Translations under genes and position numbers: made by a program
The notes under the pieces: generated by a model
The model's input: the letters and a program-made list of their open reading frames with translations, nothing else
The model's database searches: none
What the model was told of the DNA's origin: nothing
Part shown: one piece after another, positions 23,378 through 35,002 of the stretch
How positions within the stretch are numbered: the first letter of the stretch is position 1
Layout: each line of letters starts with the position of its first letter
Assembly (NCBI RefSeq): GCF_003344865.1
Contig: NZ_CP031165.1
Location: 5,709,910-5,773,909 of the forward strand
Source of the DNA: Euzebya pacifica
GTDB lineage: Bacteria; Actinomycetota; Nitriliruptoria; Euzebyales; Euzebyaceae
Direction of reading: 5' to 3'
DNA length: 64,000 bases

Positions 23378-24538
23378 GTGTCACAGGCTGACTGGCTGGA
23401 GAAGGACTTCTACAAGGTGCTCGGCGTGTCGAAGACCGCCAGCATCGATGAGATCAAGAAGGCCTACCGCAAGGCTGCGCGTACCAACCACCCCGACGCC
23501 AACCCCGACGACCCCAAGGCCGAGGAGCGCTTCAAGGCCGCCTCGGAAGCCAACGAGGTGCTGTCGGACCCCAAGAAGCGGCAGGAGTACGACCACATCC
23601 GCGAGCTGGCCGCGTCCGGCGGCATCGGCGGGTTGGGCGGCATGCGCGGCGGGTTCCCCGGCGGTGCCGGCGGGCAGGCCAACTTCGACCTCAACGACCT
23701 GCTCGGCAGCATCTTCGGCGACGGCGCGTCGGCCCCCGGCGGGTTCGGCGGCGCTCGCCGGACCCAGACGGCCGCCCGCAAGGGTGAGGACCGTCGCGCC
23801 GAGGTGACCCTCTCCTTCGAGGACGCCCTCGCCGGCGCTGAGGTCACCCTCCGGGTCATGGGAACGGCCGTGTGCCAGGTCTGCAAGGGCACCGGCTCCA
23901 AGCCGGGCACCCGACCGGTGCAGTGCCCCCGCTGCAACGGCAGCGGCATGCAGGACCAGAACCAGGGCATGTTCAGCTTCAGCCAGCCGTGCAGCAACTG
24001 TGGCGGCCGTGGCGAGCTGATCACCGACCCGTGCACCAACTGCCACGCCAGCGGTGTGGAGGAACGCGCCCGCACCCTTCGGGTCCGTGTGCCGGCCGGC
24101 GTCAGCGACGGCCAGACCATCCGGCTGAAGGGCAAGGGCGAGGCAGGTCGCGGCGGCGGCAAGGCCGGCGACCTGTACGTCAAGGTCCACGTCGCCGATC
24201 ACCCGGTGATGCGCCGCAAGGGCGATCACCTGACGATGACGCTGCCGGTGACGTTCGCCGAGGCGGCCCTCGGGGGGAAGGTGACCGTACCGACCCTCGA
24301 CGGGCCGGTGACGCTCAAGATCCCCGCGGGCACCGAGTCGGGCCGGACCATGCGTGTCCGTGGCCGCGGGGCCCCCAGGGACAGCGGCGGGTTCGGCGAC
24401 CTGCTGGTCACCGTCCAGGTCACCGTGCCGCCCAAGCTGACCAAGACCCAGAAGAAGCTGGTGGAGGAGTTCGCCGCCATGGACGACTCCAACCCCCGCG
24501 CCCACCTCGACGAGATGCTGACGGGCGGGAGCAGCTGA
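23378..24538 (+). CDS. dnaJ: chaperone DnaJ (Hsp40, type I)
   Basis: 386 aa from GTG with a strong AGGAGG site. J-domain (about 10-75) with the catalytic motif written NHPDAN, i.e. HPD intact. Gly/Phe-rich region (about 85-125). Four zinc-finger repeats: [33 protein letters not shown]-terminal substrate-binding domains with [14 protein letters not shown]. Stimulates DnaK ATPase and binds clients. The stop overlaps the hspR start (TGATG). Confidence 0.97.
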
Positions 24539-24936
24539 TGCGCGAACGTGCCGTGTACATCATCTCCGTGGCCGCGGAGTTGGCCGGTGTGCACCCCCAG
24601 ACCCTGCGCACCTACGAGCGGCGCGGGCTGATCAAGCCCGCCCGGACGTCGGGCGGGACCCGGCGGTACTCCGCACGTGACGTCGAGCGGGTGCAGCTGA
24701 TCCAGGAGCTGACCCAGGGCGATGGCGTCAACCTGGCCGGCGTCCTGCGGATCCTGGCGCTGGAGGACCGGCTGGAGCAGATGGAGGCCAAGCTCGCCGA
24801 GGCGCAGGAAGAGGTCCGGCAGGTCCGCGTCGAGGCGACCCGGACACTTCGAGCCATCCAGGACTCGTCCCGCTCGGAGATCGTGCTGTACCGGCCGCCG
24901 CAGATCGAACGCCACCGCGGATCCCGCCGCCGCTGA
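24538..24936 (+). CDS. hspR: heat-shock repressor HspR (MerR family)
   Basis: 132 aa. N-terminal MerR helix-turn-helix: YIISVAAELAGVHPQTLRTYERRGLI and wing RTSGGTRRYSARDVERVQLIQELTQ. A coiled-coil follows (LEDRLEQMEAKLAEAQEEVRQV). Established role: DnaK-dependent repressor binding HAIR inverted repeats; the HAIR site upstream of dnaK in this window supports autoregulation. Overlaps the dnaJ stop by 1 nt. Confidence 0.95.
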   Translation: MRERAVYIISVAAELAGVHPQTLRTYERRGLIKPARTSGGTRRYSARDVERVQLIQELTQGDGVNLAGVLRILALEDRLEQMEAKLAEAQEEVRQVRVEATRTLRAIQDSSRSEIVLYRPPQIERHRGSRRR

Positions 24937-25126: not shown

Positions 25127-26197
25127 TCAGTGGCCCGGGCAGGCCGCGGCCAGGAGGGGGTAGGGGTTGGTGTCCGTGCCGTGTCGGCCGGCGGGTCGCC
25201 ACTGGATGTGCAGGTGAGGGGGTGTGTCGACCGCGTTGCCGGTCCGACCGACGAAGCCGATGACCTCACCACGTTCGACCTCGCGACCCGGTACCGCCGA
25301 GCGGGCGAAGGCCGACAGGTGGGCGTAGTACCAGGCCTGCCCGTCATCGGTCCGCAACCAGATGATGTTGCCGCCGAGCCCCGCGCCCGATCGCACCTCC
25401 TCGATCGTGCCGTCGGCAAGGGCGACCAGCGGCTGGCCCTCGGCGGCGAACATGTCCTGCCCCAGGTGCACGCGACCGCCGGGCCGCGGGAAGTGCCAGG
25501 AGTCGATGAAGGTGACCGGCGCCACCACTGGACAGCCGATGGGTCCGCTGCCCGGGAACAGGGTGTCGGTCAGGTGCGTGGCCTCGGCCAGGTAGGTCGC
25601 GGCGATGGCCAGGACCTCGTCGACGTAGGCGCTGCTGCGGTTGTAGGACAGCACCGCCGCTCGAGCCTCGGAGGCGTCGGTCAGGTCGAGGGAGGAGTGG
25701 CACAGGTAGGCCGCGGCTGACCGGGCGACGTCGTGGATGTCCTGCGGGTCGGCCCGGTCGTCGCCGTCGCCGTCGCGCCCCCATCTCGACCAGGTACTCG
25801 GGATGAACTGCATCGGTCCGACCGCTCGGTCCCACACGGGGTCACCGTCGAGCTGCCCGCCGTCGGTGTCACGGATCGCCGCGGTGTTGTTGGTGCCGTC
25901 CAGCGGGATGCCGATGATGGGTGGAGTCGCGCGACCGGCAGGGTCCAGCTGGCTGCTGCCGTGTCGTCCGTGGTCGCTCTCGACCTTGCCGATGGCGGCG
26001 AGGAGTGACCAGCTGATCGCGCAGGGCGGCTCGACTTCGGCGGCGGCCGCGGCCGCATCGACGTAGGCCTGCAACGCCACCGCCGGGATGTCTGGATGTC
26101 GGAGGCCGCCACCGCTGGCGTCGTCGACGCCGATGAAGAGGATCGGCATCGCCAGCACACCCAGCACGGGCAGCCCCGCGGCCAGCAGCGCCTTCAC
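25127..26197 (-). CDS. bifunctional cell-wall hydrolase: lytic-transglycosylase-like domain plus M23 peptidase
   Basis: 356 aa from GTG at 26197, with GGAGG upstream and a 4-bp overlap with the preceding stop. N-terminal TM (ALLAAGLPVLGVLAMPILFIG). Transglycosylase-like domain: SWSLLAAIGKVESDHGRHG with the presumed catalytic Glu in KVESDHG, then RAVGPMQFIPSTWSRWGRDG, as in MltB-type goose-lysozyme folds. C-terminal M23 (LytM) domain: RVHLGQDMFAAEG and PPHLHIQW supply the HxxxD and HxH zinc ligands. Such enzymes open peptidoglycan for conjugation machines. Last gene of the secretion-type operon. Confidence 0.85.
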   Translation of the reverse strand: MKALLAAGLPVLGVLAMPILFIGVDDASGGGLRHPDIPAVALQAYVDAAAAAAEVEPPCAISWSLLAAIGKVESDHGRHGSSQLDPAGRATPPIIGIPLDGTNNTAAIRDTDGGQLDGDPVWDRAVGPMQFIPSTWSRWGRDGDGDDRADPQDIHDVARSAAAYLCHSSLDLTDASEARAAVLSYNRSSAYVDEVLAIAATYLAEATHLTDTLFPGSGPIGCPVVAPVTFIDSWHFPRPGGRVHLGQDMFAAEGQPLVALADGTIEEVRSGAGLGGNIIWLRTDDGQAWYYAHLSAFARSAVPGREVERGEVIGFVGRTGNAVDTPPHLHIQWRPAGRHGTDTNPYPLLAAACPGH

Positions 26198-28578
26198 CGG
26201 TCGCCTCCGGGTCGCCCGAGTCGACGAGTGGACGGCCCCCGGGGATCGGGTGCGTCCGGCGTCGTGGCTGCTGCGGCTCGTTGCCCCATCTCCGCGGCCC
26301 GGCTGGCCGGCGGCGTCGAGCCGGCACGGGGCCCTCGCGGCTGGTCCGGAGCGTCCACCGGTCGACGATCCGCTCCCGCACCGGGTTCGCCCGAACCGAG
26401 GGCCGCTGGGCTCTCGAAGGCAAGGGCCAGGGAACGCTCCAGGCCCATGCCCTCCACGTCCCATCCGCCTCCCCGCTCGGGCAGCATGCGGACGGGTACC
26501 CCCGACCAGGCGGCCCCGGGGGATCGGGTCGCGGCCGGCCGACCGGTGGTGTCCGTTGGCCTGTCGGGGCGGCGGCTCGCCGTCGACCCGTCGAGCGCCG
26601 CGACCATCCAGGCCTGGCTGGAGGTGGATCTGCGCGCAGCGAGGCCGGCGACCGCTCCTGTGGCGGTGCCACGTGGAACGCCGGCGCCCCTCACCCCTGC
26701 CTGCGAGCCTGCCCCCGCCTCCGAGCTCATCCTTGCCGGAAGGAGAATGCGGCTGGGCAGGGATGGTGTGACCGCGACAGGGAGGAACCCACCCGTGCCG
26801 TTGCCGTGCGCCACGGGTTCGGGGACGGCCCGCCCACGTGCGTCGACGGGTGGCGACAGCTCGCGAGGCCCCCCTGTCCCGCCCGGGGCCGGTGCCGACC
26901 CAGCAGCCGTGGGGGTGGCAGCCGTTGTCGATGGCAGCGCGTTCCTCGGGGCCCCTGCCGTGATCGCGGCGCCTGCCGTTGTCGCGGTCGTGCGCGCCGG
27001 AGGGGAGGTCGTGGGCCCGGTCGTGGCGGCTGGAGGCGCACTTCGGACCGCTCCGGCTGCCGCCACGGTGGTCGTCGACGTGCGTGCGGCTGCGGCGGCG
27101 ATCAGCAGTCGTTGACCACGTCCGGCGGTCTGGACGCCCTCGCCGCTGCCACCCCGACGCATGGCGGCGAGCGCAGACGCCCCGCCGGTCTTCAGCGCGA
27201 CGGCCGCGCCGACGGCTTGCGTGGCGATCCCCCCGATGCGCTGCTCGGGGTCGTTGCCGACCGCACCGACGTCGGCACCGGGACCCGCGGCCCTCGCCGC
27301 CACGCTCTGGGCCGCGAACCGCATCGACCCGAACACCTGCTTGCGCAGCACGACGGCCGTCCAGGCCGCCGCAGCGCTCGCCAGCATCCGCATCGCCACC
27401 GGCTGGTCCTGCATCCCCGCCTGCAGGGCGTGGACCGTCTCCACCATCAGGACGAGCAGGGCCGCCGAGCCCAGGAACAGCACCGCCACCTTCAGGACCG
27501 CATGCCCCCAGCGGGCCAGCAGCTCGCGACCGGCGCCGGGTGCGATGCCGGCGGTCAGGGCGAAGGGCATCACCATCACCAGGAGGGCGCCGGCGACCTG
27601 GCCGGTCAGCAGCATGACCGCCACGATCCCCACCGCGGCGGCGAACGCCAAGCAGGCCAGCAGGTGGGCAAGCGCCCCGACGAGCCGGTCCACGCCCATG
27701 TGCGCGTTGAAGACCGCCTCGTCCTCGCAGCCAGCCTCCTCCATCTGGTCGCGCGGGAAATCGTCATCGCCCCAGGGCCCCTTCCGTACGAGCGCATCGG
27801 CGACCTGGCGACACCCACCGGTGGGGACGGACCCCCACTGCAGCGTCATCCAGGGATCGACGACGAACGTGTCGCGCGCCGTGGCCGAGAAGCTGGTCGG
27901 CAGGGCTGACCCCTGTGGTTCGCCGCACACGCCGGGTTCGCGGTCGGCCCCGCCGGTACCGAGCTCGACGACGGCACGAGTTGTCCCGGCGAGTACGCGT
28001 AGGCCCTCGCACGCTGCGGTCGTTGGTCGGGCCATCACCGTGGTCGCCATGGCCGTGATGGTGAGCGCCACGGCGAGCTCGGCCGCACCGGCGTGTGCTC
28101 GCTGGCGCAGCAAGAGCCAGCCGCCCCGTGCGACGGCGACGAGCAGGGCCAGGTGGATCAGCTGCAGGCCGCCGACGACGTCAGTGGCGTAGACCCCCGC
28201 GATCCGGCCGGCTGGGTCCACGAGCATGCGGCCGAGGTCGAACCCGAGGACCCACTCGACGAGATGGAGGCCCAGCGCGAGGACCCATCGGGCCATGGTG
28301 AACAGGCTGCGGGCCTGCAGCGCGACGATGCGGTCGACGACCCCGACCGACGCGCCGAGCTCGTAGTGGGACAGGGGGACCTCGCCGGCCCGGACCCCGA
28401 ACATCGCACCGAGCAGGTCCTGTCCAGCTCGGTCGGGCGGATCCTCCCGCTCGATCGCCTCGAGGACGTCGGCGACGTCTGCTGCACTGGGCTGTGCACC
28501 CGCCGGGTCGGCCAGGGCCAGCCCCACCGCCATCGCCAGCAGGGCCGCGACGAGCCACGACCGGGGTGCCGGTCTCAC
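26194..28578 (-). CDS. TrbL/VirB6-like multi-pass membrane protein of a type IV secretion-type system
   Basis: 794 aa from GTG at 28578, overlapping the upstream ATPase stop (GTGA). Signal-like segment ending ADPAGAQPSA. A loop with Cys residues (TTAACEGL; VCGEPQ; VPTGGCRQ; EEAGCED) is predicted extracellular. A cluster of at least five hydrophobic helices follows (e.g. GIVAVMLLTGQVAGALLVMVMPFAL), then a roughly 350-residue disordered Ala/Pro/Thr-rich cytoplasmic tail. The architecture matches TrbL/VirB6 channel proteins; sequence assignment rests on topology and neighbours. Confidence 0.7.
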   Translation of the reverse strand: MRPAPRSWLVAALLAMAVGLALADPAGAQPSAADVADVLEAIEREDPPDRAGQDLLGAMFGVRAGEVPLSHYELGASVGVVDRIVALQARSLFTMARWVLALGLHLVEWVLGFDLGRMLVDPAGRIAGVYATDVVGGLQLIHLALLVAVARGGWLLLRQRAHAGAAELAVALTITAMATTVMARPTTAACEGLRVLAGTTRAVVELGTGGADREPGVCGEPQGSALPTSFSATARDTFVVDPWMTLQWGSVPTGGCRQVADALVRKGPWGDDDFPRDQMEEAGCEDEAVFNAHMGVDRLVGALAHLLACLAFAAAVGIVAVMLLTGQVAGALLVMVMPFALTAGIAPGAGRELLARWGHAVLKVAVLFLGSAALLVLMVETVHALQAGMQDQPVAMRMLASAAAAWTAVVLRKQVFGSMRFAAQSVAARAAGPGADVGAVGNDPEQRIGGIATQAVGAAVALKTGGASALAAMRRGGSGEGVQTAGRGQRLLIAAAAARTSTTTVAAAGAVRSAPPAATTGPTTSPPARTTATTAGAAITAGAPRNALPSTTAATPTAAGSAPAPGGTGGPRELSPPVDARGRAVPEPVAHGNGTGGFLPVAVTPSLPSRILLPARMSSEAGAGSQAGVRGAGVPRGTATGAVAGLAARRSTSSQAWMVAALDGSTASRRPDRPTDTTGRPAATRSPGAAWSGVPVRMLPERGGGWDVEGMGLERSLALAFESPAALGSGEPGAGADRRPVDAPDQPRGPRAGSTPPASRAAEMGQRAAAATTPDAPDPRGPSTRRLGRPGGDR

Positions 28579-31049
28579 CGCAGCACAGGGGGGTCGGTCG
28601 TGGCGGCCGCCAACCGTTCCGGCGGGGACGATGCATCGGGTGTCGGGTCGGCATCCCGCGCCATCGGGGTGGTGTCCAGCGCGGCCCGGATGGCCGGGTC
28701 CGCGGGCGGCAGCACCTGCACCAGCCCGACTCGGTCGGCGACGTCGCGCAGCAGGCACTGGCCGGTCCCCAGCTCGCCCGTGACCAGCTCGACCATGGAG
28801 TCAGTGGCCGGCAACCCCATGAACTCCAGGGCTGCCGCGGCCGCCCCGCGGGACTGGCGGAACAGCGCCCGCATGCCGAGCAGGTCCCGCAGCGCGTCCT
28901 CGCCGAGGTCGGTCGGGTGCTGCGACAGCACCCAGACCGCGGCGTTGTGCTTGCGTCCGTCGCGGATGGTGTCGAGCAGCAGCTGGCGACCCTGTGGGCT
29001 GGCCGTCAGCGCCCACGCCTCGTCGACCAGCACCGCGCCGAAGCGGTCGTCGGCGAACACGAGGGTTCGTGAGACGGCCGCGACCAGGTACAGCAGGGCC
29101 TGGCCGAAGACCTGCTCGGGCAGGAGCTGCTTGGCCAGGTGCTCCAGCCGCATGGCGTCGCGGTCGGGCAACGCCAGGCCCGGGGCGTGGAAGCAGATCA
29201 GGTCGGCGTCCAGCGCCAGCGGCGGCCGGTCGGCGAGGACCAGCTGGGACAACGGGTGATCGCGATAGGCCTGGAGCTTGCGGCGCAGGACCCGCGCCTC
29301 GGGTTCGGCCGAGTCGCCCAGCTGATCGAGGACGTCGACCAGCCGACCGTCCCGCGCCGCAACGGCACGAACGGCCGCGGCGAGCACGGCGCCGTCGACG
29401 TCGGTGGGGGTGGTCCGGGTCAGGATGCTGAGGAATCCCAGCGCCACCCGGACGCGGTCCTCCCCACCGAAGACACGCAGCGGGTCCATGCCCACGGGCG
29501 CCGACGGATCCAGCTCGACCACCGCCGCGGTGCCGTCGACGGCGTCGGACAGGCGGACGTACTCACCGGCAGTCGTGCGGTCGAGGGTGACGACGCGCCC
29601 ACCCCGGGCGACGGTGCCCAGCACCATCCGCTTCACGAAGTACGACTTGCCGCTGCCCAGCGCGCCGAAGACGCCGAGCGAGCCCGAACGGTTCGTGGCA
29701 GGCCCGTGAGCGGGGTCCAGGAGGACGGCCTCCGGCAGCGCACCCGCGATGGACACCCCCATCGGGATGCCCTGAGGATCACCGACGCTGGCCCCGGCGA
29801 ACGGGGCACCGGCGGCCAGGTCGCGGGGCAACATGAACTGCACGTAGTCGCGACACACCGCGGGGGCCGGGACACCGGGCAGTCCGGCGGCGAACAGCGG
29901 GAGCTGCCCACCGGTTGGACGGTGGACGGCATAGCCCCAGGGTTCGAGCAGGTCGCCGAGCTGCGAGGCGCGGGCGTCGACCTGCCCGACGTCCTCACCC
30001 CAGACGGTGAACCCGATCGTGACCTCCAGCTCGGGGTCGCCGGGACTGGCGGCCAGCGCCGACTGCTCGTCGCGGATGCCGTGCAACGCATCGGCGAGGG
30101 TGTCGGGCGGACCGGTGGGCTCGCCGTCGTACTCCGCGACCTGGGCGGTCAGCTGGCGCTGCTGACGGCGGGCACGGGTCTGGGCTGCCGCGTTGGGCAC
30201 GGCGTCGAGTCGTGCGACCCAGTCGACCGGGAACGGGGCGAGGTCGGCGACGGCGAACCACTCGCCCCCACCCGGGTAGGCGAACGCCGGGGGCATCTCC
30301 GAGACGACGAGGGTGGTCTGGAACGACGTGCCCTGCTCGTTGTCGATGCGCAGGTACCGACGGTGCCGCCCTCGCCCGGGGTCGTGGGCCGTGCCCCCCT
30401 CGTGCAGGACGGCGTCGCCGAGGCTGCCGGCGAGCGGGCGGGGGACCTGGTCGGCCGTTGGATGCCCTGCAGCCGGAGGGGTCGGGTCGGCGACCCCCCG
30501 CAGGAAGGCCCGCTGATGGAGCCAACGCATCTCCGCGGAGTGCGCTGGCCGTACGCCGATGGTCCTGGCCATCCGAGCGCCCAGCTCCTCGGCCCGGCGG
30601 CGGGAGGTGCGGTCATCGATCCGTGACGGCCCGGGCCCCTCGACCCCGAGCACGTCGCCGACGAGCGCCATGGCGCTCTCGACGAGGGTCCGGCCGTGTG
30701 GATCGACGATGCGGGCGGCGATGTAGACCCGGCGTTCGACCGGACCTCTTGCCAGCAACGCCCGGGCGTCGGGCCCAGCCGAATCTCGCCACCGGGGCAA
30801 CCGGTCGGGCCGGACGCCACCGCTGAGGGCCTCGCCCAGCTCACGGGCCCCGACGCGGCGATGCACCCCGATCAGCTGTGCGTGCCGGGGCAGCGTCGTC
30901 AGCGCCGCGCGAACGCGACCGTGCAGCGCCAGCTTCGCGTCGTCGGACAGGAAGGGATAGCTGGGCAGCTCGACCCTCCAGACCGCCCAGACAGCCCCGT
31001 CATGGGTCCACAGGCGATTGCCGGCAACGGCACGGGCAGGAAGCCTCAT
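28575..31049 (-). CDS. VirB4/TraC-type secretion ATPase
   Basis: 824 aa from ATG at 31049, which overlaps the upstream stop by 4 bp (ATGA); the frame is open farther but lies over the upstream gene. Walker A GVFGALGSGKSYFVKRMVLG (around residue 455), Walker B AVLVDEAWAL, and a downstream motif VLSQHPTDLGEDALRDLLG fit the VirB4 family, the motor that assembles type IV secretion channels. The N-terminal half (about 1-400) carries the regulatory domain seen in VirB4/TcpF-like proteins. No separate coupling protein (TcpA/VirD4) is encoded in this window. Confidence 0.87.
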   Translation of the reverse strand: MRLPARAVAGNRLWTHDGAVWAVWRVELPSYPFLSDDAKLALHGRVRAALTTLPRHAQLIGVHRRVGARELGEALSGGVRPDRLPRWRDSAGPDARALLARGPVERRVYIAARIVDPHGRTLVESAMALVGDVLGVEGPGPSRIDDRTSRRRAEELGARMARTIGVRPAHSAEMRWLHQRAFLRGVADPTPPAAGHPTADQVPRPLAGSLGDAVLHEGGTAHDPGRGRHRRYLRIDNEQGTSFQTTLVVSEMPPAFAYPGGGEWFAVADLAPFPVDWVARLDAVPNAAAQTRARRQQRQLTAQVAEYDGEPTGPPDTLADALHGIRDEQSALAASPGDPELEVTIGFTVWGEDVGQVDARASQLGDLLEPWGYAVHRPTGGQLPLFAAGLPGVPAPAVCRDYVQFMLPRDLAAGAPFAGASVGDPQGIPMGVSIAGALPEAVLLDPAHGPATNRSGSLGVFGALGSGKSYFVKRMVLGTVARGGRVVTLDRTTAGEYVRLSDAVDGTAAVVELDPSAPVGMDPLRVFGGEDRVRVALGFLSILTRTTPTDVDGAVLAAAVRAVAARDGRLVDVLDQLGDSAEPEARVLRRKLQAYRDHPLSQLVLADRPPLALDADLICFHAPGLALPDRDAMRLEHLAKQLLPEQVFGQALLYLVAAVSRTLVFADDRFGAVLVDEAWALTASPQGRQLLLDTIRDGRKHNAAVWVLSQHPTDLGEDALRDLLGMRALFRQSRGAAAAALEFMGLPATDSMVELVTGELGTGQCLLRDVADRVGLVQVLPPADPAIRAALDTTPMARDADPTPDASSPPERLAAATTDPPVLR

Positions 31050-31456
31050 CCGGCTGGCACCCGCCGTTGCCCTGGGCGGCCGACCGGGCCGGCACCGATG
31101 AGCACCGGTCGTGTGGGGCGAACCGGTCGGCCGGCACGGGAGCCACGTCGGGGACGCAACAGGTAGGTCAGCACCCCCACCGCGAACCGCATGGGCGACC
31201 GTCCCTCCACCACCGCGTGTCGGACGGCCCAGGCAGCGGCAACGGGCAGCAGGAGGGCCACGACCAGGTCCAGCGCGCCGGGCAGCCTGGCCCAGACGTG
31301 CCGCGTGGACAGCTCGATCGCCGCAACACCGACGAGGGCAACGACCTGCGTCGGGGTCAGCGGGGTCGGCAGGGCGTAGCCGCCGATGCGGCCGATCACG
31401 ATGGGGAACCGACGAGCATGGGTGTAGGTGCGGCACTGCAGCATCGGACTGCTCAT
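31046..31456 (-). CDS. PrgI/TcpE-like small membrane protein of the secretion-type operon
   Basis: 136 aa from ATG at 31456. The N-terminal motif RTYTHARRFPIVIGRIGGYALPTPLTPTQ is characteristic of TcpE/PrgI-like conjugation proteins. Two hydrophobic helices follow (VVALVGVAAIEL; LDLVVALLLPVAAAWAV), then a basic tail. It directly precedes the VirB4 gene, the usual order for PrgI-VirB4 pairs in Gram-positive conjugative systems. 4-bp overlaps on both sides. Confidence 0.78.
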   Translation of the reverse strand: MSSPMLQCRTYTHARRFPIVIGRIGGYALPTPLTPTQVVALVGVAAIELSTRHVWARLPGALDLVVALLLPVAAAWAVRHAVVEGRSPMRFAVGVLTYLLRPRRGSRAGRPVRPTRPVLIGAGPVGRPGQRRVPAG

Positions 31457-31680
31457 GGCGCCATCCAGTCGGTGGAGTCTGCAGCCACGCGACCTTCGAG
31501 GACGTCGACGTTGCCGGCAGCCCAGACGACCACCGCCGCCAGGATGATGGCTGTCATGGTGGGGACCAGCGCCTTGGTCTTCCACCAGACGCTGGCGACG
31601 TAGACCGCAGCCGCGGCGGCGATGGCCGCGGTGATGACGTCGCTGACGTCACCGATCATGTTGCTGAGGAAGTCGATCAA
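31453..31680 (-). CDS. small two-TM protein, pilin/VirB2- or TcpD-like position
   Basis: 75 aa. Two hydrophobic segments (ITAAIAAAAAVYVASVWW and VPTMTAIILAAVVVWAAG) joined by a short basic turn KTK. No sequence family recognised; size, topology and gene position resemble VirB2/TcpD-type subunits. The stop overlaps the TcpE-like start by 4 bp. The gap to the upstream TcpC-like gene is 37 bp. Confidence 0.6.
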   Translation of the reverse strand: MIDFLSNMIGDVSDVITAAIAAAAAVYVASVWWKTKALVPTMTAIILAAVVVWAAGNVDVLEGRVAADSTDWMAP

Positions 31681-31717
31681 TTCGGTTCACCTCGAGTTGC
31701 GTGGGCGGGCATGCGGA

Positions 31718-32542
31718 TCAGGGGCCGGTTGGCGCCAGCGGGAGGGCGGGCAGCACACGGGCCACCTCGATCCGGCCCTCCCGTTCGGCGAGGAGCAGGG
31801 GGTACTGCGCGAGCAGGGCGCTGCCGTCGGCGCGACGCAGCTCGACCTCGGCCAGGACCGCGACGCTGGTCGTCGACACGCGGTTCCGGGCGATCCGGCG
31901 CAGCGTCATCTCGGCGACGGGGTGGTCGAGCACGGGAACTTCGACGTCGACTGCGGTCCAGCGGTCGACCTCGCCCATCCCGAGCAGCACGGCACGAAGG
32001 AACCCCTCGACCGTCGCCGCCAGGGGGTCATCGGAGGCGGGGGCCCGCGGCGCATCCAGGGCGAGTGCTGCGGGGGCCTCCGCTCGGGGCGTCGGGACCA
32101 GCGCGGGCAACCCTTCGACGGCCGGGCCGCCCGGCGTCTCCGCGACGGTGACCTGCCACGCCTCGACCGTCGCGTCGCGGCCCAGGACGAGGACCGTCAC
32201 GCCCCAGCGGCCGGGTCCGGCGGGGGTGGCCGTCACAGCTGCCACGTCCACGGGTCCCGGACCGGGCAACGCAGTGGAGGCGTCCGCGGTGACGTCGTGG
32301 ACCGGCAGCAGCTGCTGGCGCACGGGCTGCAGCCGAGTCGGGGGAACCGTCCCGCCCACGAGGTGCTGCAGGACCGCGACCTCGGCCATCGACGTGACGC
32401 CGACACCGGGAACGGCCGGTGGTGGCTGCTGCCGTCCCGCGCTGGTGGCCACGACGAGCGCGGCCACCCCGAGGACCGGGCCGGCGGCGACGGCGATCCA
32501 CAGGCCGAGCTGCAGGATGCGCACGGGGGCGGGGGGCGTCAC
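31718..32542 (-). CDS. TcpC/VirB8-like conjugation protein
   Basis: 274 aa. Short cytoplasmic N-terminus, one TM (LGLWIAVAAGPVLGVAALVVAT), then an extracytoplasmic part with two predicted NTF2-like folds. The first is about residues 50-150. The second has DDPLAATVEGFLRAVLLGMGEVDRW and ends LLLAEREGRIEVARVLPALPL. This layout is that of TcpC, the Gram-positive counterpart of VirB8. The start overlaps the LysM-protein stop by 4 bp. Confidence 0.72.
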   Translation of the reverse strand: MTPPAPVRILQLGLWIAVAAGPVLGVAALVVATSAGRQQPPPAVPGVGVTSMAEVAVLQHLVGGTVPPTRLQPVRQQLLPVHDVTADASTALPGPGPVDVAAVTATPAGPGRWGVTVLVLGRDATVEAWQVTVAETPGGPAVEGLPALVPTPRAEAPAALALDAPRAPASDDPLAATVEGFLRAVLLGMGEVDRWTAVDVEVPVLDHPVAEMTLRRIARNRVSTTSVAVLAEVELRRADGSALLAQYPLLLAEREGRIEVARVLPALPLAPTGP

Positions 32543-33426
32543 GGCTGCGCGGCCTCGGCGGTGGATGGCAGCACCAGGCGCTCACCGGGGTGGATCAGGT
32601 TCGCGTCCCCGCTGCGGAGCGTCGACAGGTTGTCGTGGATGAGCCGCGTCCAGTAGGCGTGAACCTCCGCGTCACGCGGCGCCGGCTGCCCGTCCGCGAG
32701 CAGGTGCGCCCGCGCGATCACCCAGAGGTTCTCACCCGGGGCCACGACATGGACCCCCGGATCCGCGCCCGCATCGGCCTCATCAGGCGCGCCCTCATCA
32801 GCAGTGTCCGGAGCAGCAGTGCCCGCAGCAGGAGAACCCTCACCAGTCGCGTCGTCAACAGCGGGGTCCACGGTGTCGGGGTGCACGGGTTCGGTGGTGG
32901 GGCCGGGTGCGCTGTCGGTCGGCCGAACGGGTGGCTCCAGCGGCGGGACGGGCAGCGCCCACGGCCCCGGCGGGATCGTCCCCATCACCGCCGAGTCGGC
33001 ATCAACCGCCTCCTCCGACAGGTCCGCCAGCGACCGGAGACCGGGCTCGCTGAAGTCCGGAGAGACCTCGGACAACGCCATCGGCAGGTCGGCAGGCGTC
33101 ACGGCCGTGGCGGGGCCGGCCATCACGCCGACGAGCAGGACCGTGCCGAGTGCCTGGTCCACCACCCGTCTGACCCAATGCGGCGCCACTCGACGCACGC
33201 CCCCGCCGCGGACCGCCATCACGAGGTCGACCAACGTGATGACCAGCAGCCACGCCGAGGCCAGGGGTGTGGCCCCGAGCAGGAGCAGGCGCGTCAGCAC
33301 CCCCGCGGTGGCGTCGGCCAACGTCGCCGGCTCGGCCAGGGCCGCGGTGACCTCCGGAGCAGCGAGTCCGACAAGCCATGCGGTCGCGGCGACCTGGACC
33401 ATCAGGAGAACGAGCAGTCGTGTCAT
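32539..33426 (-). CDS. LysM-domain membrane protein, first gene of the secretion-type operon
   Basis: 295 aa. N-terminal hydrophobic helices (LLVLLMVQVAATAWLVGLAA; LLLLGATPLASAWLLVITLVDLVMAV; a third near ALGTVLLVGVMAGPATAV), then an acidic Pro-rich linker. A C-terminal LysM-like domain (about 235-290) has HVVAPGENLWVIARAHL and NANLIHPGERL-type ending (GDANLIHPGERLVLP), expected to bind peptidoglycan. ATG at 33426. Membership of the operon is shown by the 4-bp overlap with the TcpC-like gene. It probably anchors the apparatus to the wall. Confidence 0.75.
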   Translation of the reverse strand: MTRLLVLLMVQVAATAWLVGLAAPEVTAALAEPATLADATAGVLTRLLLLGATPLASAWLLVITLVDLVMAVRGGGVRRVAPHWVRRVVDQALGTVLLVGVMAGPATAVTPADLPMALSEVSPDFSEPGLRSLADLSEEAVDADSAVMGTIPPGPWALPVPPLEPPVRPTDSAPGPTTEPVHPDTVDPAVDDATGEGSPAAGTAAPDTADEGAPDEADAGADPGVHVVAPGENLWVIARAHLLADGQPAPRDAEVHAYWTRLIHDNLSTLRSGDANLIHPGERLVLPSTAEAAQP

Positions 33427-33564: not shown

Positions 33565-34431
33565 ATGGCAGGAGTCGAAGGACGCGTCGTCGCCATCACC
33601 GGAGCAGGCGGAGGGCTGGGCCGCCAGCACGCCCTGCTGTTCGCATCGCGCGGCGCGAAGGTGGTCATCAACGACCTCGGCGGGTCGCGCGACGGCACCG
33701 GCGCAGGCAGCGCGATGGCGGACCAGGTCGTCGAGGAGATCAAGGCCGCCGGCGGCGAGGCGGTCGCCAACTACGACAACGTGGCCACCGAGGAGGGCGG
33801 CGCCGCTGTCATCCAGACCGCCCTCGACACGTTCGGCCGGATCGACGTCGTCGTGAACAACGCCGGCATCCTGCGCGACGGCACCTTCCACAAGATGACG
33901 GCGGACAACTGGGACTCGGTGCTGAAGGTCCACCTGTACGGCAGCTACAACGTCACTCGCGCCGCCTGGCCGCACTTCCGCGACCAGTCCTCGGGCAAGG
34001 TCATCATGACCACCTCGACCTCCGGGCTGTACGGCAACTTCGGACAGGTCAACTACGGGGCCGCCAAGCTCGGCATGGTCGGGATGATGAACTCCCTCGC
34101 CATGGAGGGCGCCAAGTACAACATCAAGGTCAACTCCGTGGCCCCCATCGCCGCCACTCGCATGACCGAGGACCTGTTCAACGACGAGATGCTCAAGCAG
34201 TTCGACCCGGCGTACGTCTCACCGCTGGTCGTGCACCTCGGCAGCGACGAGATGACCGACTCGGGCTGGATCGTCCTGGCCGGTGCCGGTCAGTACGCGC
34301 GGGTGCACTTCTCGCAGGCCAACGGCGTGCACTTCGACGAGGTCCCCACCCCCGAGGCGCTCGGCGAGAAGTGGGGCGAGATCACCGACATGACCGGCGC
34401 GCCCCTCGGCAAGCCGTTCGGCACCGAGTAA
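33565..34431 (+). CDS. SDR-family oxidoreductase, MFE-2 / 3-hydroxyacyl-CoA dehydrogenase-like
   Basis: 288 aa. Cofactor motif TGAGGGLG, NNAG at NNAGILRD, catalytic Ser in TSTSGLYG and YGAAK. The stretch LLFASRGAKVVINDLGGSRDG is typical of the dehydrogenase part of peroxisomal multifunctional enzyme type 2, where the Gly-Gly loop favours NAD(H), and of related actinobacterial proteins. Likely acts on 3-hydroxyacyl-CoA in beta-oxidation. Stand-alone. Convergent with the coiled-coil gene, 3 bp apart. Confidence 0.87.
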   Translation: MAGVEGRVVAITGAGGGLGRQHALLFASRGAKVVINDLGGSRDGTGAGSAMADQVVEEIKAAGGEAVANYDNVATEEGGAAVIQTALDTFGRIDVVVNNAGILRDGTFHKMTADNWDSVLKVHLYGSYNVTRAAWPHFRDQSSGKVIMTTSTSGLYGNFGQVNYGAAKLGMVGMMNSLAMEGAKYNIKVNSVAPIAATRMTEDLFNDEMLKQFDPAYVSPLVVHLGSDEMTDSGWIVLAGAGQYARVHFSQANGVHFDEVPTPEALGEKWGEITDMTGAPLGKPFGTE

Positions 34432-34434
34432 CGG

Positions 34435-34926
34435 CTACGGCGACGGGGGCAGGCGGCGAAGGATCTCCTGCACCCCGTCACTGAGACCGTCCAGTCGACC
34501 CTCCACACCCTCGAGTCGACCCTCCACACCCTCGAGTCGACCCTCCACACCCTCGAGTCGACCCTCCACACCCTCGAGCCGACCCTCCACACCCTCGAGC
34601 CGACCCTCCACACCCTCGAGCCGACCCTCCACACCCTCGAGCCGACCCTCCACACCCTCGAGCCGATCCTTCACCGCACCGAGGTCGTCCTCGACGCGGT
34701 CGAGGCGGGCGTCGGTCTCGACGGCATGACGTTCCAGCGAGGTGAAGCGCCGGTCCATCTCGCGGCCCATGTCGGAGACGGTGTTCAGGATGGCGGTCTC
34801 CGTCATCGTGATCCGCTCTCGGACCTCCTTCTGGAACTCGGTCATGCGGCGCTGCTGCACGTGCAGCTCGTCCGACACGCTCGCGCGGAATTCGCGCACG
34901 ATCGTGCGCAGGTCCTGTTCGGTCAC
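34435..34926 (-). CDS. coiled-coil protein with eight identical heptads
   Basis: 163 aa from GTG at 34926 (VTEQDLRTIVREF), chosen for the GAGGGG sequence about 8 nt upstream; an ATG at 34977 is an alternative. Apart from the first residues the whole protein is predicted coiled coil. The C-terminal half repeats LEGVEGR eight times, encoded by a 21-bp tandem array, before ending LSDGVQEILRRLPPSP. No enzymatic motif. Function unknown; the repeat number may vary between strains. Confidence 0.7.
   Translation of the reverse strand: MTEQDLRTIVREFRASVSDELHVQQRRMTEFQKEVRERITMTETAILNTVSDMGREMDRRFTSLERHAVETDARLDRVEDDLGAVKDRLEGVEGRLEGVEGRLEGVEGRLEGVEGRLEGVEGRLEGVEGRLEGVEGRLEGVEGRLDGLSDGVQEILRRLPPSP
34500..34667 (-). 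repeat. tandem 21-bp heptad-coding repeat, eight units
   Basis: Eight head-to-tail 21-bp units with plus-strand core CCTCCACACCCTCGAG. The first three units (plus-strand order) continue GTCGA and the last five continue GCCGA, so two homogenised subfamilies are visible. Each unit encodes LEGVEGR on the minus strand. No spacers, so not CRISPR. Confidence 0.9.
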
Positions 34927-35002
34927 CTTGTCCACCCCTCTACTGTAGGCCCATCGCTCATCCAGCGATCCTGCCATCGAGTGGATCCGGGCGTCCCGAG
35001 TT

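Follow-up and report, generated by a model that had tools for sequence, protein, structure and literature searches.

A type IV secretion core at a fixed chromosomal place in Euzebya, probably domesticated from a conjugative element

Can the transport core of a conjugation system be kept in a bacterial chromosome apart from the genes that process and mobilize DNA? The question is raised by a locus of Euzebya pacifica (order Euzebyales; genome of 5.80 + 0.57 Mb), read here in a window of 64,000 nucleotides, by which we mean the whole stretch of DNA that was analysed. Seven genes, all on the minus strand, span exactly positions 25127-33426 of the window (Table 1). An earlier note, made from the window alone, had described a seven-gene type IV secretion-like operon at this place; gene limits and family tests show that the operon is real and that its coordinates were right. 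The gene junctions, described there as 4-bp or near overlaps, are 4-bp stop/start overlaps in five of six cases, while the step from the VirB8-like gene to the small two-TM gene is a gap of 37 bp, the only non-overlap in the block. Contig 1 starts with dnaA-dnaN-recF-gyrB, as read from the translations, which places the block ~60 kb from oriC.

Table 1. Genes of the operon and of its two borders, in window coordinates
Feature	Position	Strand	Description
LysM-type protein	32539..33426	-	295 aa; first operon gene; N-terminal hydrophobic segments, C-terminal LysM-like domain
TcpC/VirB8-like protein	31718..32542	-	274 aa; single N-terminal TM; overlaps LysM gene by 4 bp
Small two-TM protein, TcpD-like	31453..31680	-	75 aa, read from a TTG start; two helices joined by a basic turn
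TcpE family protein (VirB3 role)	31046..31456	-	136 aa; C-terminal tail basic; overlaps the genes on both sides (small protein, VirB4)
VirB4/TcpF ATPase	28575..31049	-	824 aa; Walker A GALGSGKS, Walker B VLVDEAW
VirB6/TrbL-like membrane protein	26194..28578	-	794 aa from overlapping GTG start (GTGA overlap)
Membrane-anchored wall hydrolase	25127..26197	-	356 aa; SLT lytic transglycosylase + M23 peptidase
hspR-like MerR regulator	24538..24936	+	last dnaK-operon gene; left-hand border of block
SDR oxidoreductase	33565..34431	+	PF00106 150 bits; right-hand border of block

Judged by its predicted products, the operon encodes a complete type IV secretion core of the MPF-FA type, similar to those of pCW3 and ICEBs1. 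The ATPase matches AAA_10 in Pfam with 187 bits, its profile finds the solved VirB4 structure 4ag5 in the PDB (E 6.7e-17), and its Walker A and Walker B residues are invariant across nine relatives. Its best NCBIfam family is TcpF (E 2.5e-41), yet the score of 141 bits compares with a cut-off of 1100 for this narrow model. The gene immediately upstream of virB4 encodes a protein that matches TcpE (PF12648, 44 bits, E 3.2e-11, cut-off 29.9). It had earlier been labelled TcpE/PrgI-like, with a basic tail; the match identifies it as TcpE and not PrgI, and the basic C-terminal tail is indeed present. The wall hydrolase scores above the Pfam cut-offs for both M23 (70 bits) and SLT_2 (35 bits) and carries the catalytic motifs GKVES, HLGQD and HLH.

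The remaining four products are assigned by less direct routes. The VirB8-like protein itself has no Pfam match. It is identified as TcpC/VirB8 because homologues exceed the TcpC cut-off, among them the orthologous L020 protein with 36 bits (PF12642), and because comparison of the VirB8-like profile with the TcpC-matching profile gives a probability of 98.8%. For the VirB6-like protein, TrbL (PF04610) reaches 16.2 bits (E 0.009), under its cut-off of 25.9, and a VirB6/TrbL assignment fits the predicted size, the TM segments and topology, and the position, with homologues at the same place. This protein combines a TM core with a low-complexity tail of about 350 residues, which had been singled out as noteworthy. 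The VirB6 proteins of MPF-FA systems normally have 700-900 residues with unstructured domains (PMC12857230), so that the tail would be an ordinary trait of the class. The LysM-type protein scores 16.8 bits against LysM in Pfam (E 0.0066), under the cut-off of 20.9, and its putative assignment leans on size, topology and position; homologues occupy the same operon position in three further genomes of the genus (G001-G003) and in G010, G150 and G238.

Size, topology and position likewise suggest that the 75-aa protein is TcpD-like; in MPF-FA systems, TcpD and TcpE lie just upstream of VirB4 (PMC12857230). It has a two-helix, pilin-like topology, and its single-sequence model is a helical hairpin (pLDDT 76, pTM 0.40) with no meaningful match in the PDB. 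In an alignment of 13 homologues, one matches TrbC/VirB2, at an E of only 0.066. PDB profile searches with the alignments of the VirB8-like and the small protein returned chance matches only.

To place the operon in its lineage, we compared four genomes of the genus (G000, the present one, to G003) and the single genome available for the sister genus (G004). Several of the genomes are drafts (completeness about 94-98%); in the relatives, genes were delimited with a simple codon-usage caller and not taken from annotation, and absences hold for the families searched and the search sensitivity used. The earlier note had proposed checking whether the block keeps its chromosomal position in relatives, and it does: all four genus genomes have it, intact and constrained by purifying selection, with hspR (dnaK operon) on one side and the same SDR/AlaX genes on the other. 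In G000, G002 and G003 it sits directly between hspR and SDR with AlaX beyond, G003 having one small extra gene before the SDR gene; G001 has the same two borders, but an insertion of ~11 kb, made up of ordinary genes, separates hspR from the block. None of the seven frames is interrupted in G000 or elsewhere in the genus. No tRNA genes were found in the window and no att-like repeats flanking the block. The sister genus carries its block elsewhere, flanked by YibE/F and pfkB-like genes, with TcpC, the small protein, TcpE, VirB4, VirB6 and an M23 protein lacking SLT; the LysM gene is missing. As a side observation on the right-hand border, the window holds at 34435-34977, on the 3' side of the SDR gene, a small, coiled-coil-like protein in which a unit of 7 residues (RLEGVEG) recurs in tandem; the corresponding gap in G002 is only 104 bp (L017:5412-5515), in which no gene of that size fits.

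The locus had also been described as free of mobility and DNA-processing genes, and we agree: relaxase, coupling protein and integrase were all not found near the block. Inspection and Pfam reveal no relaxase among the block and flanking genes, the nearest TrwC matches lying far off in the genome. The genome-wide relaxase search covered two families, PF13814 and TrwC. PF13814 is absent from G000-G004 and from G150 and G238, while the same search is positive in G010, G060, G157, G411, G183 and G213. The candidate coupling ATPase of the related integrative elements has no relative in G000-G004, G150 or G238 and is found in G010 and G060. The label of this ATPase (L050:953-3541, L020:3156-4991, L045:13232-15466, L047:15867-18494 and L048:9586-12210) is probable, being drawn from its position, a membrane portion at the N-terminus and the Walker-type motifs GKT and FLDE; it has no usable Pfam or PDB match. 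The earlier note had called for a genome-wide search for relaxases and coupling proteins; TrwC relaxases and VirD4-type proteins are present elsewhere in the genomes of the genus.

Relatives outside the family display what the Euzebya locus lacks. G010 carries a whole ICE, with a ParB-like gene, a PF13814 relaxase, the coupling candidate, hydrolase, VirB6, VirB4, TcpE, small protein, TcpC and LysM, followed by an excisionase-like HTH_17 gene and a tyrosine integrase. In G010, G060 and G157, the homologous core lies beside a PF13814 relaxase and a coupling-ATPase candidate; the cores of G010 and G411 adjoin integrases, that of G411 also a VirD4-type coupling protein. Linear plasmids of Streptomyces and Kitasatospora (NZ_CP108405, NZ_AP018366) have the same gene order and carry a "replication-relaxation family protein" and an "ATP/GTP-binding protein". 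VirB4 identity is 43-47% to G010 and G060, 27% to G157 and about 35% to the plasmids. Outside the family, its nearest kin are thus ICEs and Streptomyces plasmids equipped with relaxase and coupling protein, which makes an ordinary conjugative element the ancestor of the block. The arrangement named beforehand as the mark of such an element, a core next to relaxase, coupling protein and integrase, is seen in relatives, but only outside the family (G010, G060, G157, G411) and not within the genus or sister genus.

VirB4 relatives are sporadic, occurring in 10 of 66 genomes in the class and 20 of 396 in the phylum (E 1e-20), and a VirB4-profile search of wider genome contigs returned four loci only. 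In the VirB4 tree, G000-G003 and G004 form one clade (support 97/99), G004 having a long branch and a flagged composition; this tree, on which the point depends, makes vertical descent at the family level likely. In two genera of another family (G150, G238), the same core occurs at one fixed place beside lgt, again without PF13814; it adjoins a ferredoxin-like gene there as well (L044 in G150, L043 in G238). In G016 (L023), a related core adjoins contractile-injection-like genes (Pvc16_N) and a BTAD-type regulator.

From the parts observed, we infer assembly, cargo and direction as follows. The block is probably the core of an ancient actinobacterial conjugative element that became domesticated, moving cargo for the host and not its own DNA. 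The relaxase, coupling protein and integrase of the ancestral element would have been lost or left behind, and the channel core fixed in the chromosome before the genus radiated, to be inherited vertically ever since. ATP-driven VirB4 hexamers, bound to TcpE and the TcpD-like protein, would work a VirB6/VirB8 membrane channel, the SLT-M23 enzyme would open the peptidoglycan, and the LysM protein would hold the assembly on the wall. Cargo would enter the channel without a dedicated coupling protein; it could be a protein, DNA or another macromolecule, carried through the monoderm envelope to serve the host. We see no gene for a cargo, effector or partner linked to the block; protein export is our first choice, held tentatively. 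The fixed position in four of four genomes and the missing DNA-handling and mobility genes together indicate that the host probably kept the channel for its own job. The reading as domesticated and not mobile, which the earlier note had offered as a possibility, fits the genus and sister genus, while the ancestry is that of an ordinary ICE.

The likeness to known systems is closest with the MPF-FA elements (pCW3 Tcp, ICEBs1 Con, ICESt3, Tn916), which share TcpC, a two-TM protein, TcpE, VirB4/TcpF, a putative long-tailed VirB6 and a wall hydrolase in one operon (PMC12857230); the Euzebya block differs in having no relaxase, coupling protein or integrase at its locus and in its fixed place in the genus. 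The Replic_Relax-type ICEs (G010, G060, G157) and the Streptomyces and Kitasatospora plasmids have a homologous VirB4 and the same gene order, but retain the PF13814 relaxase and the coupling-ATPase candidate, and in G010 also the tyrosine integrase. Patescibacteria harbor type IV secretion systems that are monoderm, chromosomal, mostly relaxase-less and thought to be co-opted, some of them near dnaA (PMC12102498). The Euzebya block, about 60 kb from oriC, resembles them in being monoderm, chromosomal and relaxase-less; theirs are described as MPF-FATA systems with VirB2-like pilins, and VirD4 homologues occur in many of their genomes (PMC12102498). Relaxase-less monoderm systems are hence already known, and what is new here is a monoderm core without a coupling protein. 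In the literature on domesticated actinobacterial type IV secretion systems, we found no description of the Euzebya operon.

Systems that work without a coupling protein have been described for Bordetella (Ptl), Brucella (VirB), Helicobacter (ComB) and Bartonella (Trw), all of them diderm (PMC12857230). These share with the Euzebya block the use of a type IV core without VirD4, but they serve diderm envelopes, several of them in two steps via the periplasm, and represent separate domestications. A bolder reading, which we regard as possible but somewhat doubtful, is that Euzebya has a monoderm system in which VirB4 is the sole motor and neither a coupling protein nor a relaxase takes part, retained by the host to export or take up material, and that G150 and G238 hold a second instance. 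If true, such a VirB4-only monoderm machine would be a Gram-positive counterpart of Ptl, ComB and Brucella VirB. A vertically kept core without DNA-processing parts raises the question of how transport through an envelope with one membrane could be powered by VirB4 alone.

The parallel with ComB leads to an unlikely alternative, in which the block would be a DNA uptake machine bringing DNA to a ComEC-type membrane channel. A set of VirB3, VirB4, VirB6 and VirB8 without VirD4 or relaxase matches the logic of ComB (PMC12857230), and the block is conserved, single-copy and chromosomal. It is set against this that there is no competence gene in the block or its close flanks, and that a monoderm has no outer membrane to cross.

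Similarly improbable, by analogy with cmdABCDEF of Streptomyces coelicolor (SCO4126-4131), is a wall or developmental complex that exports nothing and acts in segregating chromosomes, in septation or in building the envelope. The cmd operon is chromosomal and contains a VirB4 gene, and its loss disturbs sporulation while transfer of the tested plasmid is unaffected (PMC2782261); the two operons thus share a conjugation-like, chromosomal nature with a VirB4-like ATPase and, in cmd, a host function. The wall-acting LysM and SLT-M23 genes, the adjacent dnaK operon and the nearby oriC speak for such a role in Euzebya as well. However, by the authors' own comparison (PMC2782261), cmdB resembles SCO6878 of the SCO6871-6884 cluster, apparently a different branch.

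Help from elsewhere in the genome has to be weighed as well. VirD4-type proteins (PF02534) give one match each in G000, G001, G003 and G150, two in G002 and none in G004 or G238; the PF02534 and PF01580 matches of G000 all lie away from the block. FtsK-type matches in G001 and G003 are limited to a single protein each, of ordinary FtsK size; G000 and G002 additionally hold a large multi-ATPase protein about as long as EccC. TrwC relaxases occur in each of G000-G003 (at least five loci in G000, about a dozen matches for G001) and are absent from G004. Since the genus genomes have TrwC as well as VirD4-type coupling proteins (one or two per genome) away from the block, occasional DNA transfer in trans may occur within the genus.

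A further alternative, to which we give little credence, extends this possibility: the core would be a resident mating bridge that lends its channel, in trans, to the many small integrative mobilizable elements of TrwC type. The number of TrwC loci would suit this arrangement, most of those read having no type IV secretion system nearby. A more natural partner, however, exists in a second conjugation module with its own VirD4-type protein near TrwC. This separate ICE-like module of G000 (G000:C1:2414435-2429522; L026, L005) contains TrwC, TraG/VirD4, a PrgI/EccE-like protein and a VirB4-like ATPase; its VirD4 locus lies 13 kb from TrwC and beside the second VirB4-like ATPase, indicating that it has its own machinery. 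The corresponding distance is about 15 kb in G001 and about 30 kb in G003. Moreover, G004 retains the core though it has no PF13814, PF08751 (TrwC) or PF02534 member, so that help in trans would be excluded in this genome only, and for the families searched. The TrwC (MobF) relaxase genes read in G000 lie at about 1.30, 1.31, 1.75, 2.41, 2.88 and 4.60 Mb of G000:C1 (L054-L059), with L060 and L061 in G003; some of these loci adjoin an integrase and HTH_17, like small mobilizable elements.

Selection and composition bear on whether the block is functional at all. Purifying selection acts on all seven genes. In the comparison with G002, dN/dS is 0.05 for the small protein (96% identical to its counterpart), 0.09 for TcpE and 0.11 for VirB4; it is 0.21 for the SLT-M23 enzyme, 0.25 for VirB6/TrbL (core 0.18, tail 0.31), 0.28 for LysM and 0.31 for VirB8. 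The inner motor and small membrane proteins are hence the most constrained and the outward-facing parts the least. The composition, previously called like the rest, is so in GC (0.65-0.76 per gene vs 0.71), but GC3 is lower (0.82-0.90 vs 0.917 +/- 0.030) and no other part of the window has so large a tetranucleotide distance (0.160 vs 0.102 +/- 0.007, maximum 0.117; 40 windows). This deviant make-up fits a foreign origin, though low-complexity protein sequence may contribute to the deviation. That the block is a decaying, functionless ICE remnant is very unlikely: the lost relaxase, coupling protein and integrase, the G004 block without SLT domain and LysM gene, and the deviant composition would agree with decay, but seven open frames, dN/dS of 0.05-0.31, conserved catalytic motifs and retention in four of four genus genomes argue against it. 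Apart from the chromosomal loci, the 0.57-Mb replicon carries an 823-aa AAA_10 ATPase (G000:C2:514890-515864; L025) near a ParB_N protein and proteins with no Pfam match.
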